Assembly: GCA_913060695.1 (NCBI GenBank)
Contig: CAJXUA010000018.1
Span: 1-64,000, forward strand
From: an uncultured Gammaproteobacteria bacterium
GTDB taxonomy: Bacteria > Pseudomonadota > Gammaproteobacteria > Pseudomonadales > Pseudohongiellaceae
DNA: 64,000 nt
Direction: 5' to 3'
Part shown: one piece after another, positions 27,847 through 38,842 of the stretch
Position numbering within the stretch: position 1 is the stretch's first letter
Layout: the number at the start of each line of letters is the position of its first letter
The notes under the pieces: model-generated
Seen by the model: the letters and a program-made list of their open reading frames with translations, nothing else
Databases searched by the model: none
Told to the model about the DNA's origin: nothing
Translations under genes and position numbers: made by a program

Positions 27847-27870
27847 ATCGCCTGCAGGGCAGGCTCCTAC
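27847..27870 (-). repeat. REP element (GTAGGAGCCTGCCCTGCAGG type)
   Basis: The minus strand reads GTAGGAGCCTGCCCTGCAGG followed by CGAT, with an internal GCCTG/CAGGC hairpin. It is identical over 24 bases to the two copies at 31068 and 31128. It lies in the 62-bp space between the convergent alcohol dehydrogenase and methyltransferase genes. The sequence style matches Pseudomonas-type REPs. Confidence 0.85.
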
Positions 27871-31067: not shown

Positions 31068-31154
31068 GTAGGAGCCTGCCCTGCAGGCGATCGGTCAAAA
31101 TCTTCCACAGATATTCATCAATCAGACCCGATCGCCTGCAGGGCAGGCTCCTAC
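31068..31154. repeat. Inverted pair of REP elements (BIME-like)
   Basis: Two 27-bp arms are perfect reverse complements: 31068-31094, starting GTAGGAGCCTGCCCTGCAGG, and 31128-31154. A 33-bp AT-rich centre separates them. Each arm also forms its own small hairpin. The pair fills the space between two convergent genes, like the other two REP copies in the window, as expected for REPs mobilised by a RAYT transposase encoded elsewhere. Confidence 0.92.
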
Positions 31155-31196: not shown

Positions 31197-32474
31197 CTAT
31201 TTATGCGACATCTCCACCGCATCGTATAACAGCTCTTTGCTCTTGAGCTGCAGTCCACGCGCATAGCCTAGATTGCGGTTCTGAATCATGCCCACGAACA
31301 CCAGGTCTTCCACTGGGTCTATCCAGAACCAGGAACCAGCGATGCCCCACCACCAGTAGCTGCCCTCAGACATGCCGCCGTTCTTGCTAGGGTCCATCAC
31401 TACCGCGAAGTCCAAGCCGAAGGCGTTGCCTGGGTAGCCAGGAATCTCGGTCTGCCCTGCTGGCAGTTGGTTCATGCGCATGAGGTCGACACTTTCGGGG
31501 GAGAGGATGCGCACGCCATCAAGCGTGCCACCATTGGCGACCATTTGAGCGAAGCGCAGATAGTCTCCTGCTGTGGAGGTCAGGCCGCCGCCACCGGATA
31601 GGAAGGGCACAGGTTCGATGAAGTCAGCATTTTCTGGGCTAGTAATGCCATTCGCGCTGGAGGTGTATTCCCGCGAGAAACGCGCGGCCTTCTCTGCCCC
31701 TAAATAGAAGCGAGTGTCTACCATTCCTAGTGGCGCGAAGAGGCGCTCCTGGAGGAACTCGTCGAAGCCCATGCCGGAGAGTTTCTCGACTAGATAGCCC
31801 TGTACATCCACCGATACGCTGTAATGCCACACACTGCCAGGTTGCTGCCGCAGCGGAATCTGCGCGAGCTTATCGATCATGTCTTGCAACGTAGAGTTGC
31901 GATCCAATACATTAGCTTCGTTATAGAGTGTGTCGACACGCGAGCGCGAGAAGGGCCCGTAAGTAAGGCCGCCGGTGTGGCTCATGAGCTCGCGCATGGT
32001 CATCTTATGGCTTAGCTCCTCCGCCATCGGGATGCCGTTGGGTGCGTCGTCTTTGGCGACGACAAGATTGCTGAACTCGGGGATGTACTTCTCGACTGGG
32101 TCATCGAGAGTGAACTTCCCTTCCTCGTAAAGCATCATCATGGCTACGCCAGTAATGGGCTTGGTCATGGAGAAGATGCGGAAGATTGTGTCCTGCGCTA
32201 TGGGGACCTGATTCTCGAGGTCTTGGTAGCCGTAGGCGTCGCGCTGGACGATCTTGCCATGGCGGGCCACTAGCGTGACGATGCCGGCGAGTTGGCCCTT
32301 GTCGACCTCCTCGTGCATGCCTGCGGTGAAGGCGTTGAGCGCGCTGCTGCTCATGCCCACGTCCTCAGGTGCTACCTGTGCGAGATCGCGCTCTGCGGCG
32401 TGTCCCACAATGGTCGCCAAACTGAAAATCAACGCAAATCCTATGCGTGTTAAACCATTCGTTATTGTTCTCAT
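31197..32474 (-). CDS. Serine hydrolase, class C beta-lactamase family (EstB-like)
   Basis: A 425-residue exported protein: signal sequence residues 1-26 (FALIFSLATIVGHA), then a beta-lactamase/transpeptidase fold. The nucleophile motif is S102-M-T-K105 (RIFSMTKPITG) and the second motif is Y218-S-V (VWHYSVSVDV). The WWGIAGSWFWIDP region near the end takes the place of the KTG strand. This variant is typical of esterases and amidases of family VIII rather than of antibiotic-hydrolysing enzymes. ATG 32474 follows AGGGGGAAGC; the frame beyond, to 32669, lacks coding character. It lies 216 bp after the haem locus and may have its own promoter. Confidence 0.85.
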   Translation of the reverse strand: MRTITNGLTRIGFALIFSLATIVGHAAERDLAQVAPEDVGMSSSALNAFTAGMHEEVDKGQLAGIVTLVARHGKIVQRDAYGYQDLENQVPIAQDTIFRIFSMTKPITGVAMMMLYEEGKFTLDDPVEKYIPEFSNLVVAKDDAPNGIPMAEELSHKMTMRELMSHTGGLTYGPFSRSRVDTLYNEANVLDRNSTLQDMIDKLAQIPLRQQPGSVWHYSVSVDVQGYLVEKLSGMGFDEFLQERLFAPLGMVDTRFYLGAEKAARFSREYTSSANGITSPENADFIEPVPFLSGGGGLTSTAGDYLRFAQMVANGGTLDGVRILSPESVDLMRMNQLPAGQTEIPGYPGNAFGLDFAVVMDPSKNGGMSEGSYWWWGIAGSWFWIDPVEDLVFVGMIQNRNLGYARGLQLKSKELLYDAVEMSHK

Positions 32475-32690
32475 GCTTCCCCCTAAAGTCGATTCTGGAT
32501 TGCTCGTAGCTGAGCGAAAATCAAGACGGATATAAGCATACTCATGGCCTAATCTCAATCGCACAGGCAGCGTTTGAGACAGCAGGCCGGTGCGAGGTAG
32601 GAGGGTCTCAAAAGGATGTGTTAGGAAGGTGGGCTTGAGCGAGGAGTTGTTGAGCTTGTCCGGCCACAAGCTCTGGGTGGGATAATTTTC

Positions 32691-33617
32691 TTACGAACCA
32701 GTGTTTAGTTGATTCTCTAGCAGCACGACTTGCGCCTCGATCCACGCCGTAACGCTAGGATGGGGAATCAGTCCTTGCTCATCGGCACGATACTCGAGGC
32801 CTTCGAGAACGTTGGCATAGGGGCCAAAGCCGTGCACTCGATAGGGAATCACTAAGGCGGTGCCCCCCGAGGCGCTCGCATTGCTTACGAACTCACGAAC
32901 ACTCTCTTCTGCGCCTACGCGCTTCTCTTCCCAGTCCTCGCGCAGCGTAGCAACCTTCACAGAGCGGAAGGGATGCTGCTCGCGTAGCGCTGCGGTGCGT
33001 GCTTCTATCTGCGCTATCCAGCGCTGGTCTTCAGCGTCTGTCTCGGGGCCGTGGGCTAGGATCAGCACGTCCTCATGGCTTGGGTCTACGCTTAGGCCCA
33101 GCGCGCGGCTAAGGAGCACATGGGCCATCTGTGGAGCTTGGGCGAGGCCATCCTTGCTTAGTGCGAACTCGGAGACGCTATCGATGCGCCAGAATGCCAT
33201 GCTGTGCCCCATCCCTGGGGCGCCATGATCGCCATGGCCGGCATCCGTATGTGCGTGTTCGATCACGCGTTCGGGCGCACCTTCTTCTAGGCCCAGTATT
33301 TGCGCGGTGCGCTCATACCAGCTCTCGCCGCTAATGAAGAGGCGTACCACGCCAATGCGCTTAACGCCACGCTGCTCTAAGCGTGCTACGGCCTCTTGTA
33401 TTGAGACCGCATCGGCCATGCCGAAGGCGAGCTCGATGTCGTAGTCCTCGCTCAATGGGGCGACTGTATCTAGCACGCCTTGGTTCCACTCGTCGCTGCC
33501 TCCGTGGGCCATCACTAAGACCCCGAAGTGCCCCTCGGTGTGGGTGTCATTCTGTGCTAATACGCTTAGTGGACTGACAATGACTAGTACTAGCCACGCG
33601 CTCAATATTGCTTTCAT
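32691..33617 (-). CDS. Exported CbiX/SirB chelatase-like protein with His-rich loop
   Basis: A 308-residue protein with a clear signal peptide (LVLVIVSPLSVLA, cut near residue 21). Two lobes each open with a chelatase-type strand and His: LVMAHGGSDEWN (His38) and LILAHGPETDAED (His189). This is the two-domain CbiX/SirB pattern that inserts cobalt or iron into tetrapyrroles, normally in the cytoplasm. Between the lobes is a loop with five His in 18 residues (121, 123, 128, 131, 138). A third conserved-looking His is in YRVHGFGPY (262). It lies 37 bp after the haem receptor gene, so binding haem or moving its metal in the periplasm is a reasonable guess. Confidence 0.75.
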   Translation of the reverse strand: MKAILSAWLVLVIVSPLSVLAQNDTHTEGHFGVLVMAHGGSDEWNQGVLDTVAPLSEDYDIELAFGMADAVSIQEAVARLEQRGVKRIGVVRLFISGESWYERTAQILGLEEGAPERVIEHAHTDAGHGDHGAPGMGHSMAFWRIDSVSEFALSKDGLAQAPQMAHVLLSRALGLSVDPSHEDVLILAHGPETDAEDQRWIAQIEARTAALREQHPFRSVKVATLREDWEEKRVGAEESVREFVSNASASGGTALVIPYRVHGFGPYANVLEGLEYRADEQGLIPHPSVTAWIEAQVVLLENQLNTGS

Positions 33618-33654: not shown

Positions 33655-35898
33655 TTAGAATTCGTAGTTGAGGCTTAACCTGAAATTTGTGCCGGGGGCT
33701 TGGGCCTTGGCGATGTTGTCACTATCAACTGCGGCTAGGCCTTTGATGCTGTTCCAGGCGGCATAGTCCGTGTTGAATAGATTAAACACGCCTGCTCGCA
33801 GCTTCGCGTGGGTACCTAGGTCGAGGTAGGCCACTAAGTCGACTAGTGCATAGGCCTCGCCGGTCACCCTATCGGGTGCGGACACGCGATCCTGATCTGA
33901 AGCAAGGGTGAGCAGAGTCTCCGCACCCCAGCGACCGCTATCGGCATCGAAACGCGTGCTGATCACGGCAGTAAGTGGCGACACGCTGTCTAAGGGGCGA
34001 CCACTGATCTTGTCCTCGCCTCGGGACCACGCGATGGCGCTGCGCAGTTGCCATGAGCGGTTGACTCTCCATGAGCCATTGAGCTCGGCGCCATAGATCT
34101 CTACTTCGCCGATATTGCTGTCCTGAAATAGGCTGATCCCGTTGACCTGACCTACCATCTGACTCTCTATGAAGTTGTCGTAGGCGTTGTGATAGATAGC
34201 GATGCCGACATTGCCGCGCGCGAACTCGCTGCGCAGTCCCGTCTCAATACCGAGGCTCGATTCCGCTTCTAGGTCCGGGTTGGGTACGGTGGCATAGCCA
34301 TGGCCAAGATTAACGAAGGCCTGATTGCTCTCGTCGAAGTTAGGGGGGCGGTACCCCTCAGCTACTTGTACAAACGCGGTGGTGCTTGGCGTAATGTCAT
34401 ATAGGGCGCCGAAGTTGAAGCTGGCGTGATTCTCCTCTACGGCCACGATCTGATAGCCGCCGAAGTTACTGATGTCCCCGCCACCATTGACGAGTGCATC
34501 GGTATGCGGATCCATCTCATAGGAGTCGTAGCGTACTCCCGGTATTAGGCGCAGTGCCCCGTCACCCACACTAATCTCATCCTGCCAGAAAATACCTGCG
34601 CGTGTTGTGGCGGTATCAGGGAAAGTCTTATTGGGGAAAACTTCCGGAGACGCGAAGGGATAGCTAGGAATTGCGCAGGCTAGGTCCCCCGTGCTGACCT
34701 GAATATCGCAGCGTTGGCGAGGGCGTGCGGTATCGGTGCGCTCGGCTGAGAATCCGTAGACCATGGCGTGCTGCAGCCCTTCGTTGCCAAACTGCTTCGT
34801 CAGAGTGATGCCGGCACCTGCGGTCTCTTGATTGAACTCGAAGTCCGAATAGCGCTGTGCCTGTGTGCCGCCGTAGGTCTGAGGATTGCGAGGGTTGATG
34901 AAGGAATAGCTCGTCCTGAGTTGCTGCGTCCTCTGCTCTCCGTCGGTGCGCTGCCAATGTAACTGGGTCTCAACTTGGTCGGCAAATGCAAGATCCGCCG
35001 CCCAAGAATGGTTCAGGCTAAGGCGCAAGCGGTCCGTGCTATCCATGCCATTGGATTCGAGCACAGAGCCACTGAGTTCGGAGTCGATGCGAGTGGCGAT
35101 CTCCTCTTCGGAGGAGTCGATGGTGAGGCGCAGGATATGAGCTTCGCTTGGCTGCCAAACACTCTTCCACAGCCACGCATTGGACTGGCCGTCCTGAGGG
35201 TTAAGCTTTAGCTCGTTAGGGCTCTCCATCTCCTCGAAGTTGCGCTTGGTAAATTGAACGACGGAGCCGATGTCGCCATTTTGGAACGCATAGCTTACTC
35301 CCGTCTTGAGCAGATCGTTGACGCTGCTCGCGCTGCTGCGCACGCTCAAGGCTGAACTCTTACCGTTTTTTAGGTAGTCGCGCGGGTCCTTGCTGCGCAG
35401 AATGACGGCACCACCCATCGCGTCGGCGCCATAGAGCACCGATGCTGGGCCCCGGATGATCTCTACAGCGCGTAGATCGTCCATCTCGAAGGCGTCTTTG
35501 CCATAGGATGAGGGGCCGGCCGCATAGATATCGCTACTGCGCACTCCATCGATAACGGTGAGTACGCGATTGCCGCCGATGCCGCGAATGGCAAAACCTT
35601 GGTTGCCGCCTCGTGAGGCGACGTCCATCGTGACGCCGGGCTGTAAGCGCGTCACTTCACTAAGGTCTTCGATGAGTTGTCGCTCGATCTCGTCGAGGCC
35701 AACGACCGACACAGTGCCGGCGATCTCGTCGACACTACGGGGCAGGAGTGTGGCCGTGACCATCACCTCCTCGACGCGCTCGGGAGTCCCCTGTGCGGCG
35801 ATAGTAGGGGCAATCAAACTACACGCGAGGGCGAGACTGAGTTTGCGTAATTGGGCTGGGGGTGTGGCAGGTGATTTTATGTTGCTTGTGCTTAACAT
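33655..35898 (-). CDS. TonB-dependent outer-membrane receptor, haem type
   Basis: A 747-residue outer-membrane receptor: signal peptide (ALACSLIAPTIAAQ), TonB box-like EEVMVTA, plug domain with GNQGFAIRGIGGNRVLTVIDG, then a 22-strand barrel ending in Phe (RLSLNYEF). The extracellular region carries the haem-receptor signature in diverged form, YRPP...GHGY...NPDL, near residues 515-540. It has a His near 530, where FRAP/NPNL receptors have their haem ligand. ATG 35898 follows AGGAGAG. With hemP upstream and a Fur box, it should import haem or a haem protein-derived ligand. Confidence 0.87.
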   Translation of the reverse strand: MLSTSNIKSPATPPAQLRKLSLALACSLIAPTIAAQGTPERVEEVMVTATLLPRSVDEIAGTVSVVGLDEIERQLIEDLSEVTRLQPGVTMDVASRGGNQGFAIRGIGGNRVLTVIDGVRSSDIYAAGPSSYGKDAFEMDDLRAVEIIRGPASVLYGADAMGGAVILRSKDPRDYLKNGKSSALSVRSSASSVNDLLKTGVSYAFQNGDIGSVVQFTKRNFEEMESPNELKLNPQDGQSNAWLWKSVWQPSEAHILRLTIDSSEEEIATRIDSELSGSVLESNGMDSTDRLRLSLNHSWAADLAFADQVETQLHWQRTDGEQRTQQLRTSYSFINPRNPQTYGGTQAQRYSDFEFNQETAGAGITLTKQFGNEGLQHAMVYGFSAERTDTARPRQRCDIQVSTGDLACAIPSYPFASPEVFPNKTFPDTATTRAGIFWQDEISVGDGALRLIPGVRYDSYEMDPHTDALVNGGGDISNFGGYQIVAVEENHASFNFGALYDITPSTTAFVQVAEGYRPPNFDESNQAFVNLGHGYATVPNPDLEAESSLGIETGLRSEFARGNVGIAIYHNAYDNFIESQMVGQVNGISLFQDSNIGEVEIYGAELNGSWRVNRSWQLRSAIAWSRGEDKISGRPLDSVSPLTAVISTRFDADSGRWGAETLLTLASDQDRVSAPDRVTGEAYALVDLVAYLDLGTHAKLRAGVFNLFNTDYAAWNSIKGLAAVDSDNIAKAQAPGTNFRLSLNYEF

Positions 35899-36004: not shown

Positions 36005-36166
36005 TCACTTGGTCAATATTAATTTTCGGTTTGCGGTAATGCGCAGGGTGTAACGCTCCTCATTGTGAATGATGATGAGCTCGCCCCTAGGCCCTAGCAG
36101 TTGTGCACTACTGATCTCCTGCACACTCGCTTTTTGGCGTTGTGGATCGGGTCGGTCTCCAGACAT
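36005..36166 (-). CDS. hemP: Haemin uptake protein HemP
   Basis: A 53-residue protein of the HemP/HmuP family. The whole C-terminal part carries the family pattern: EISSAQLLGPRGELIIIHN followed by YTLRITANRKLILTK. In other proteobacteria HmuP/HemP is needed for haem receptor expression or haem uptake, and it is usually the first gene before the receptor, as here. The frame continues to GTG 36190, but ATG 36166 with AGGAG upstream is the better start. The gene follows a Fur-boxed promoter and precedes the receptor by 106 bp. Confidence 0.92.
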   Translation of the reverse strand: MSGDRPDPQRQKASVQEISSAQLLGPRGELIIIHNEERYTLRITANRKLILTK

Positions 36167-36216
36167 GCTGAGCTTGGCTCCTGTAAACACGAAGTGGGAT
36201 TCAATTCGTTGCAGCG

Positions 36217-36264
36217 ATCATAGCAAGATTTTCTTAAGATGCAAATGAGAAGTGTTATCATTTG
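36217..36264 (-). promoter_or_regulatory. Fur box and sigma-70 promoter of the haem locus
   Basis: On the minus strand TTGCAT (36244-36239) and TATGAT (36222-36217) are 16 bp apart, a strong promoter about 50 bp before hemP. Immediately upstream and touching the -35 region is the palindrome with arms CAAATGA (36242-36248) and TCATTTG (36258-36264). Its core TGAGAAGTGTTATCA (36246-36260) matches 11 of 14 defined bases of the Fur 7-1-7 motif. Iron-dependent repression is the expected outcome. Confidence 0.8.
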
Positions 36265-36470: not shown

Positions 36471-36556
36471 TCTCGTAAGCTCTACCCCCCGTAATCCCTA
36501 CAGAAAAAGCGTCCTCCAGATCTCTGAATGCCTTGGCATAACTCGAGGGCTTGCGC

Positions 36557-38842
36557 ATGCATTCCATACAGGGAAATTCACAATCACAACAGGACCCACA
36601 GGCCTTAGGCCATAGTCACTATCTCAGCGCCGGCGGCGTTAGGGTGCAGCGCAGCACGATGGCGTTGACATACGGCAGTGCCATCGCCCAGCTGCGCGAT
36701 CGCCTCGATAAAGAGCGCGGTGTGCTGCTTAGCTCGTCCTTCGAGTTTCCTGGGCGTTATAACCGTTGGGATGTCGGCTTTGTGAACCCGCCCATTGCGA
36801 TCACCGCGAGGGGGCGGACAATGGAGATCGAGGCGCTCAATGCGCGAGGACGGATATTATTGCCAGAGCTGGCGCGAGCGATTGTTGCGGAGCCCTCTAT
36901 TGCAAAGAGAGAGCTAGGGGAGCACTGCCTGTCCCTCGAGCTATACGCTGACCGTGCCGATCTAGAGGAAGAGCAGCGCAGTCGCCAACCGAGTGTGTTC
37001 TCGGTACTGCGTGCCATCACCCAGCATTTCTTCAGCGACAAAGACGTTCACCTTGGGCTCTACGGCGCCTTCGCCTATGACCTGACTTTCCAGTTCGAGG
37101 CGGTGCAGCAGCGCCAGCAGCGCGATCCGACAACACGAGACCTCGTGCTCTATCTCCCCGATGAAATCATCAAGGTGGATCATCATGCCGGAGTGGCCAG
37201 GTGTCATAGTTACGAGTTCGTCTGTCGCCGCAGCGATCAGGCCGATAGCGAAACCCCAGGTGAGACTACCGGTGGCTTGCGGCGTCGCGGCAGTTCCAAT
37301 CCGTTCGTGCGCGGGGCTTTGACCGCAGCTCACTGTGATCACGGCAGTGGTGAGTACGCCGCCATAGTGCGCAAGGCGAAGGAGTATTTTCGGCGCGGGG
37401 ATCTGTTCGAGGTGGTGCCCGGACAGGTTTTTCATGAGCCCTGCAAGGACAGCCCAGCACAGATATTCACGCGCTTACAGCAGCGCAATCCTGCTCCTTA
37501 CGGCACCCTGATGAACTTAGGCGAGCAGGAGTATTTGCTAGCCGCATCGCCGGAGATGTATGTGCGTGTGCAGGGGCGCCGCGTCGAGACCTGTCCTATC
37601 TCTGGCACCATTGCCAGGGGCGAGGATGCGATAGCAGACGCGCGGCAGATCAAGGAGCTGCTCAATTCCCAGAAGGACGAGGCAGAGCTGTCGATGTGCA
37701 CGGATGTGGATCGCAACGACAAGAGTCGTGTCTGTGTGCCCGGCTCTGTGCGTGTCATTGGGCGGCGCCAAATAGAGATGTACGCGAGGCTGATTCACAC
37801 CGTAGATCATGTAGAGGGAGAACTGTCACCCGGGTACGATGCATTGGATGCCTTCCTAACTCATACATGGGCGGTGACGGTAACGGGTGCGCCCAAGCAG
37901 TCGGCGATCCAGTTCATCGAGGATCACGAGAAGTCGCCGCGCCTGTGGTACGGCGGCGCCATCGGCTGCATCGGTTTCAATGGCGATCTCAACACCGGGC
38001 TGACACTGCGCGCGGCAAGAATCAAAGACGGCATGGCACAGGTGCGTGTGGGGGCTACGCTATTGATGGATTCTGACCCGGAGGCTGAGGAGGCCGAGAC
38101 GCGCCTCAAGGCTAGTGCCATGCTGTCGGCTATACGTGCGGAGCCTCTGCCCGAGAAGCGAGCATTAAGTCCCATCGTTAGTGTTAGCGGGGCTCCACTG
38201 CGGGTGCTCATGGTCGACCACCATGACTCCTTCGTACACAATCTCGGCAGCTATTTTCGCGAGCATGGCCTTCAATTACAAACACTGAGGCCAGAGTTAG
38301 CGCGGGCTAGGCTGCAGCGCGGCGAAGTCTACGACTTGGTGGTTCTCTCGCCCGGGCCGGGGCGGCCGCAGGATGTGGCTATGGCGCAGACACTGGCACT
38401 GTGTGCAGCGCGTGAGATACCCGTGTTCGGGGTCTGCCTCGGCTTGCAGGGCATCGTCGAGTTCTGTGGCGGTAGTCTGGCGATGCTAGCCGAGCCTATG
38501 CACGGTAAACCCTCTAGCATTACGAACGATGGCGGCGTGTTGTTCAAGGGCTTGCCCCAGAGGATCATTGTGGGGCGCTATCATTCGCTGCACGTCGATT
38601 CCCTACCGGATTGCCTGCGAGCAACTGCCCGGACAGACGATGGAGTGGTGATGGCGATCGAGCATCGCAGCTTGCCCCTTCTGGCCGTCCAGTTTCATCC
38701 CGAGTCGATCATGAGCTTGGAGGAAAATAGCGGACGGGCCTTGGTGGCCAATGTTGTACAATACGCTCTCGAGATCGCGCAGCAACGCGCGTCAACTGCA
38801 CAGGAAACTCAAGACAATGTCCCAAACTACGCACAATCCTGA
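36557..38842 (+). CDS. trpE(G): Anthranilate synthase, fused TrpE-TrpG
   Basis: A 761-residue fusion of both anthranilate synthase subunits, which makes anthranilate from chorismate and glutamine. The TrpE part (about 1-525) contains the chorismate-site segments LFEVVPGQVF, YLLAASPEMYVRV, CPISGTIARG, LSMCTDVDRNDKSRVC, TVTGAPKQSAIQFIE and RLWYGGAIGCIGF. The TrpG amidotransferase part (about 555-750) has the Cys nucleophile in VFGVCLGLQG and the His/Glu pair in VQFHPESIMSL. This fusion is best known from alphaproteobacteria such as Rhizobium and Azospirillum. ATG 36557 follows GAGGG. The 3' end overlaps hslO by 26 bp. Confidence 0.93.
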   Translation: MHSIQGNSQSQQDPQALGHSHYLSAGGVRVQRSTMALTYGSAIAQLRDRLDKERGVLLSSSFEFPGRYNRWDVGFVNPPIAITARGRTMEIEALNARGRILLPELARAIVAEPSIAKRELGEHCLSLELYADRADLEEEQRSRQPSVFSVLRAITQHFFSDKDVHLGLYGAFAYDLTFQFEAVQQRQQRDPTTRDLVLYLPDEIIKVDHHAGVARCHSYEFVCRRSDQADSETPGETTGGLRRRGSSNPFVRGALTAAHCDHGSGEYAAIVRKAKEYFRRGDLFEVVPGQVFHEPCKDSPAQIFTRLQQRNPAPYGTLMNLGEQEYLLAASPEMYVRVQGRRVETCPISGTIARGEDAIADARQIKELLNSQKDEAELSMCTDVDRNDKSRVCVPGSVRVIGRRQIEMYARLIHTVDHVEGELSPGYDALDAFLTHTWAVTVTGAPKQSAIQFIEDHEKSPRLWYGGAIGCIGFNGDLNTGLTLRAARIKDGMAQVRVGATLLMDSDPEAEEAETRLKASAMLSAIRAEPLPEKRALSPIVSVSGAPLRVLMVDHHDSFVHNLGSYFREHGLQLQTLRPELARARLQRGEVYDLVVLSPGPGRPQDVAMAQTLALCAAREIPVFGVCLGLQGIVEFCGGSLAMLAEPMHGKPSSITNDGGVLFKGLPQRIIVGRYHSLHVDSLPDCLRATARTDDGVVMAIEHRSLPLLAVQFHPESIMSLEENSGRALVANVVQYALEIAQQRASTAQETQDNVPNYAQS

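Follow-up and report, generated by a model that had tools for sequence, protein, structure and literature searches.

A CbiX-like chelatase-fold protein with an export signal and an altered active site, encoded beside a haem receptor: a candidate periplasmic haem partner

The window, a stretch of 64,000 nucleotides of gammaproteobacterial DNA, encodes on its minus strand (32691..33617) a 308-residue protein assigned to the CbiX/SirB fold from its sequence, Pfam, an AlphaFold2 model and structural alignment. We conclude that this apparently exported protein, whose active site is altered, probably receives haem, or the iron of haem, in the periplasm. At a probability of about 0.45, we read it as the periplasmic partner of the TonB-dependent receptor encoded just before it, binding haem between its two lobes and transferring it rather than inserting a metal. 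This reading is based on the observed linkage of the genes and the observed conservation of residues, together with a predicted fold and an export signal read from the sequence.

Results

The frame lies on the minus strand (33617..32691), and the plus strand across the same span contains many stops. Residues 1–21 (33555..33617, minus strand), MKAILSAWLVLVIVSPLSVLA|Q, have by eye the appearance of a Sec signal peptide ending in VLA|Q. The N-termini of the orthologues, which are signal-like or carry a lipobox, back the predicted export of the window protein, as the first-pass annotation had supposed. The lipobox pattern matched in 25 of the 43 family sequences and was recognised by eye in four more (L059, L060, L075, L077), and 14 of the 43, the window protein among them, are without one. 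Most orthologues look like lipoproteins.

The ATG of the gene lies 37 bp after the stop codon of a 747-residue TonB-dependent receptor of the haem/haemoglobin type (33655..35898, minus strand), assigned by Pfam and by curated receptor models, whose cut-offs it exceeds (TIGR01786, 381.5 against 323.75; TIGR01785, 351.1 against 316.85). The locus is headed by hemP, for the haemin uptake protein (36005..36190, minus strand; PF10636, 57.9 bits against a cut-off of 25). The spacing, the type of receptor and the position of hemP all agree with the earlier description of the locus. That description also included a Fur box. Consensus scoring does place a Fur-box-like site upstream of hemP (36241..36259), but in the window it is weak, scoring 13/19 where letter shuffles gave a mean of 11.1 and a maximum of 14. 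In 29 other upstream regions, three of them from loci without the CbiX-like gene, the best score was 13–16 in 24 and 11–12 in five. The mean best score over 30 regions was 13.8, against the shuffled 11.1, and clearer sites, up to 16/19, are found in orthologous loci. A weak sigma-70-like promoter match (36217..36245, minus strand) overlaps the Fur-like site; the five promoter-like matches in the region, against a mean of 2.0 (sd 1.8) in shuffles, are weak evidence. With hemP and a haem-type receptor on one strand and a Fur-box-like site, weak as it is in the window, the genes would form a hemP-type haem uptake operon. The gene for a putatively exported protein next to one for a TonB receptor is the arrangement of the IhtB/FetB type.

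A point against the haem reading is that the receptor's His533, which stands between its FRPP and NPDL boxes, is replaced by Phe or Tyr in six of the 11 receptors compared; Tyr535 is kept in all 37 of 37. Elsewhere in the window, a fused anthranilate synthase TrpE-TrpG is encoded in one 763-residue frame (36551-38842, plus strand), divergent from hemP. A serine hydrolase of the beta-lactamase family follows the CbiX-like gene (31197-32669, minus strand); its N-terminus is signal-like, with a likely start at about 32474 by eye, and it recurs in one of 39 orthologous loci (L079). A 23-bp sequence is present in three exact copies (31069-31153, 27847-27869), two of which form a REP/REPIN-like inverted pair 39 bp apart; the mean in 100 shuffles was 0.00.

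Across 137 genomes of the window's bacterial family, a homologue of the protein was found in 40 and an orthologue of the receptor (threshold E 1e-100) in 41, and 36 genomes have both. In the 39 orthologous loci (window excluded), a receptor of at least 40% identity lies beside the gene in 36, on the same strand in all 36, and hemP is present in 26. Because the fetched loci differ in length, the counts were repeated for loci with enough flanking sequence, giving 34 of 37 for the receptor and 26 of 37 for hemP. Receptors are fragmentary at contig ends in L058 and L068 and split in L081 and L084. The six other genes that flank the window trio are present in one or two of the 39 loci, and in none to two of the 22–34 loci with room for them: the hydrolase in 1/34, the trpEG fusion in 2/30 and, with names given by eye, two acyl-CoA dehydrogenase-like genes in 1/29 and 0/26, an HslO-like gene in 1/29 and a COX15-like gene in 1/22. 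Since the receptor and hemP recur in most loci and the flanking genes in one or two, it is the trio that is conserved and not the region. The linkage to haem loci, for which the first-pass annotation had proposed such a neighbourhood survey, is thus observed within the family.

The gene is present without an orthologous receptor in L053 (genome G380), L057 and L070, and in G380 hemP stands directly before it. Five genomes have the receptor and no homologue (G494, G680, G681, G726, G407); the contig of G726 ends within the receptor gene, and the receptor of G407 is merely 37% identical. G494, G680 and G681 lack the CbiX-like gene but retain hemP and the receptor gene, which shows that the receptor can dispense with the CbiX-like protein. 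Homologues outside the family are rare. They were found in five of 274 genomes of the class (own included) and in seven of 390 genomes of the order, all seven from the same family, and among 249 genomes searched under the label phylum the window's own was the single match. One homologue record, L014, is labelled Acidobacteriota. Two stretches of viral contigs matched the search pattern, and neither encodes a relative. Matches on plasmids came from three records, all of Candidatus Manganitrophus (Nitrospirota), and the two examined encode the four-lobed type described below. Genome G768 has a second copy, 27% identical, on another contig (L085, 6335-7366, minus strand) near an ORF that resembles methionine synthase by eye; this copy has no Pfam match at E <= 0.01.

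The AlphaFold2 model of the window protein, built from nine sequences, has a mean pLDDT of 82.8 and two alpha/beta lobes, with values below 50 at residues 1–27 and in the His-rich loop, 121–137. Structural alignment of this predicted model with SirB covers 232 residues, with Z = 18.5 and an rmsd of 3.3. The other Z scores are 16.9 for periplasmic CbiK, 16.0 for CbiX (4ccs), 15.9 for P. gingivalis FetB (9b86), 15.7 for Salmonella CbiK and about 15 for ferrochelatases, and Foldseek ranks DR2241, CbiK and SirB on top. The predicted model thus has the two-lobed class II chelatase fold, which fits the CbiX/SirB-like assignment made beforehand from the sequence. In Pfam, PF01903 (CbiX) is the one family reported, at 24.1 bits against a cut-off of 22 and confined to lobe 1, with no match to CbiK (PF06180) at E <= 1. 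The NCBIfam CfbA model scores 25.1 against a cut-off of 120, and the 308-residue protein matches no CobN family of Pfam or NCBIfam at E <= 1. A family profile of 16 members matches the sirohydrochlorin chelatase 6m25 with E = 2.4e-8 over profile positions 34–166, that is, lobe 1 and the linker.

Residue conservation was counted over 43 sequences, namely the window protein, those of the 39 loci, L009, L013 and L014. The two histidines noted earlier as lobe-initial, H38 (codon 33504..33506, minus strand) and H189 (codon 33051..33053, minus strand), do end the first strand of lobes 1 and 2, respectively, and both are conserved, H189 being His in 42 of the 43 sequences, with the remaining one truncated. 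M36, H38, M67 and R92 are invariant in 43/43, and all 42 sequences that extend far enough share H189, D194, R226, E227, D228, W229, R233, R260, F264 and H286. By the secondary structure of the model, H38, M67, R92, H189, E227, D228 and R260 would lie at most three residues from a C-terminal strand end, on the cleft side. These seven residues and H286 are all kept in a set of 16 sequences that includes the four-lobed relatives.

Five canonical short CbiX proteins have His9, Glu43 and His76 as invariant residues, and we take these three to be catalytic in canonical CbiX. In hhalign, H38 falls on the invariant His9 and M67 on Glu43, and alignment with long CbiX proteins agrees. The position of canonical His76 is occupied by Trp100 (hhalign, extended ungapped) or Gly109 (long-CbiX alignment, gapped), with His in neither. 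The window protein therefore does not have the canonical His-Glu-His set, Met67 (43/43) replacing Glu43. In lobe 2, H189 aligns with an Arg of four long CbiX proteins (CbiX-L). The identity of a sirohydrochlorin chelatase is ruled out by Met67 at the place of Glu43 and the absence of the second His. The signal peptide or lipobox, recognised from sequence, and the haem-uptake neighbourhood also place the family outside cytoplasmic tetrapyrrole synthesis, and no B12, sirohaem or F430 genes were seen beside the window gene.

The His-rich loop between the lobes (residues 121–138; 33204..33257, minus strand) does contain the five histidines previously counted, H121, H123, H128, H131 and H138. The importance for function that had been attached to it finds no support in the family, where the loop is not conserved: it has four to seven His in 12 of the 43 sequences, one to three in nine and none in 22. 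The loop is modelled with low confidence, and a His-rich stretch is present at the equivalent place in the canonical chelatase 6m25. The loop was rejected as a haem or metal site typical of the family because 22 of the 43 loops are without His. As a separate observation, the 12 sequences with at least four loop histidines are all without a lipobox and all come from two genera. The loop seems to accompany the presumably soluble form, the putatively lipid-anchored form being mostly without it.

The four-lobed relatives (L086, L087, L089, L090 and L091, the frame of L091 being the same as that of L090) are encoded by open frames of 553–690 codons, about twice the length of the window protein. Their C-terminal halves are 33–36% identical to the window protein, and by eye a further, degenerate lobe pair without the two His seems to make up the N-terminal halves. 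In L086, the genes for a receptor, a PepSY protein and the four-lobed protein are consecutive; in L090 and L091, a receptor gene, a PepSY gene and a gene annotated as ferritin-like lie downstream within 8 kb. PepSY proteins include periplasmic iron reductases, and PepSY-like matches occur in three of the 39 family loci (L054, L062, L080). Overall, the neighbours of the four-lobed relatives comprise TonB receptors, PepSY membrane proteins, Fur, and SCO1/NnrS or ferritin-like genes. The receptors of L086 and L090 have their best scores on siderophore models, below the cut-offs, while L089 carries hemP next to a receptor whose scores are mixed. Because the L086 and L090 receptors look siderophore-type, the haem reading is limited to the window's bacterial family and perhaps L089.

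Discussion

We propose that the receptor would bring haem, or a close relative of it, across the outer membrane and that it would then enter the cleft that separates the two lobes of the CbiX type. In this cleft, the facing H38 and H189 are expected to hold the haem iron; the invariant R92 and R260 would be close to the propionates, and M67, E227-D228 and H286 would form the lining. The protein would subsequently hand the haem to its carrier or degrader. In this proposal, we infer the ligand, the ligating residues and the direction of transfer. Binding and transfer are favoured over metal insertion because the lobe-1 Glu and the second His of the CbiX/SirB chelatases are absent, and they are ranked ahead of iron removal, which comes second, because lobe 1 keeps the first canonical residue alone.

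A haem role would not be new for the fold, contrary to what had been suggested, since exported chelatase-fold proteins of haem handling are known in IhtB/FetB and CbiK-P. IhtB of P. gingivalis, which we take to be the same protein as FetB and to belong to PF06180 (CbiK), is like the window protein in its chelatase fold (9b86, Z 15.9), its export, predicted for the window protein, and the association of its gene with a TonB receptor. It differs in being CbiK-like in the literature, whereas the window protein has a CbiX match only, and in its phylum; the neighbours of the window gene are hemP and the receptor. According to excerpts of PMC10913741, IhtB is a lipoprotein that putatively binds haem and belongs to a TonB-receptor (IhtA) system; it is thought to strip iron from haem in view of its CbiK homology and reported not to be Fur-regulated. 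FetB, according to parts of a review (PMC13402209, citing Phonok 2026), exchanges porphyrin metals, and insertion of Mn yields MnPPIX in P. gingivalis. The periplasmic CbiK-P of Desulfovibrio (2xvx, 2xvz), already cited as a precedent in the first-pass annotation, stands as one through its location and its fold match (Z 16.9); the title of Lobo 2017 presents CbiK-P of Desulfovibrio vulgaris as a haem-binding protein, under the name of cobaltochelatase. That name sets it apart from the window protein, as does the B12 context of a Desulfovibrio cbiK, which copy being unstated, that shares a B12 element with btuCDF in an excerpt of PMC545781.

SirB, CbiX-L and CfbA (PF01903) share with the window protein the two-lobed fold, homology over residues 34–166 and the lobe-1 His. 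The window protein differs from them in its predicted export, in Met67 for Glu43, in the missing second His and in its lobe-2 His, which is Arg in four CbiX-L proteins. HmuS of Bacteroides is likewise on the periplasmic side and in a haem receptor operon, and excerpts of PMC12583661 and PMC10100974 have haem held by Met79 and His254 in its head and neck lobes, which are distantly ferrochelatase-like. HmuS is a CobN-type de-chelatase, however, while the window protein has no CobN family match. Periplasmic haem-binding proteins of the HmuT type have the same proposed job as the window protein, that of a periplasmic haem carrier, but belong to a different family (PF01497), and in G720 both types are encoded in one locus.

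The reading ranked second is that of a periplasmic haem de-chelatase, in which haem would be bound between the lobes, its iron reduced and extracted, and the Fe(II) taken in via FeoB. We consider this possible but rather unlikely. It fits the proposals for HmuS and, for iron removal, IhtB, and the predicted fold is shared with enzymes that insert metals into tetrapyrroles; the four-lobed L086, L090 and L091 stand near TonB receptors and PepSY, and PepSY-like genes occur in the three family loci. The window's genome has FeoB and no match to the haem-degrading families PF01126, PF05171 and PF10615, and 34 of the 40 genomes with the protein, some of them incomplete, have none of the three. However, these families are equally rare without the protein, 91 of 97 genomes having none, so there is no specific replacement. 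Matches occur in 6/40 genomes with it (G685, G690, G710, G716, G720, G767) and 6/97 without it (G553, below the cut-off, G675, G680, G681, G407, G757), which leaves replacement of haem oxygenase by the CbiX-like protein statistically unsupported. The PF01126 gene of G680, G681, G685 and G690 adjoins an apparent bacteriophytochrome, as judged by eye. Cytoplasmic haem enzymes also coexist with the CbiX-like protein, as HemS in G710, G716 and G720 and as DUF2470, which we take to be HugZ-type, beside an ABC system in G767. In G720 the gene belongs to a haem locus, which speaks for the main reading; the order is hemP, receptor, CbiX-like gene, two small ORFs, HemS (PF05171, 253 bits), periplasmic binding protein, FecCD permease and, last, an ATPase that scores highest with the haem ABC model, yet below its cut-off (250.1 against 261). 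G710 has the same gene set on one contig (HemS by profile, the others by likeness), and the window's genome has one strong FecCD permease with an adjacent ATPase, plus two weak matches. De-chelation is further opposed by lobe 1, which keeps the first alone of the three invariant canonical CbiX residues. A periplasmic de-chelatase derived from CbiX, as an evolutionary solution distinct from those of HmuS (CobN-type) and IhtB/FetB (CbiK-type), would let gammaproteobacteria that have no recognisable haem oxygenase, HemS or HugZ take iron from haem outside the cytoplasm, by a rebuilt site of His38/Met67 facing His189/Glu227; this seems to us unlikely.

It is improbable that the protein handles iron or ferric chelates of TonB systems generally in the periplasm, with haem as just one case. 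The four-lobed relatives near siderophore-like receptors, PepSY, a ferritin-like protein (by annotation) and Fur genes would suit such a role, as would the second copy in G768, but the four-lobed proteins are only 33–39% identical and about twice as long, and within the window's bacterial family it is a haem-type receptor that adjoins the gene in 36 of 39 loci. We give even less credence to an extracytoplasmic porphyrin chelatase that exchanges or inserts a metal in the manner of FetB, giving MnPPIX, or that acts on a non-haem tetrapyrrole. The fold match to FetB and its reported insertion of Mn (PMC13402209, in part) are in keeping with this, but the sequence of the window protein is on the CbiX side, without a CbiK Pfam match at E <= 1, and the canonical residues are replaced.

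Among the matches listed from the open-licence literature, judged by titles and the beginnings of abstracts, none dealt with a hemP operon that encodes an exported CbiX. What is new lies on the side of a CbiX-type, gammaproteobacterial protein tied to hemP and the receptor and having a rebuilt cleft, exported chelatase-fold haem proteins as such being already known. How haem passes through the periplasm, and whether it can lose its iron there, is open in many bacteria. A single small, conserved partner of a receptor, with a chelatase fold and a changed active site and in a genome that matches none of the three haem-degrading families, makes this question testable. As a partner that binds and transfers haem, the protein would widen the kind whose best-known case found is FetB/IhtB of P. 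gingivalis.
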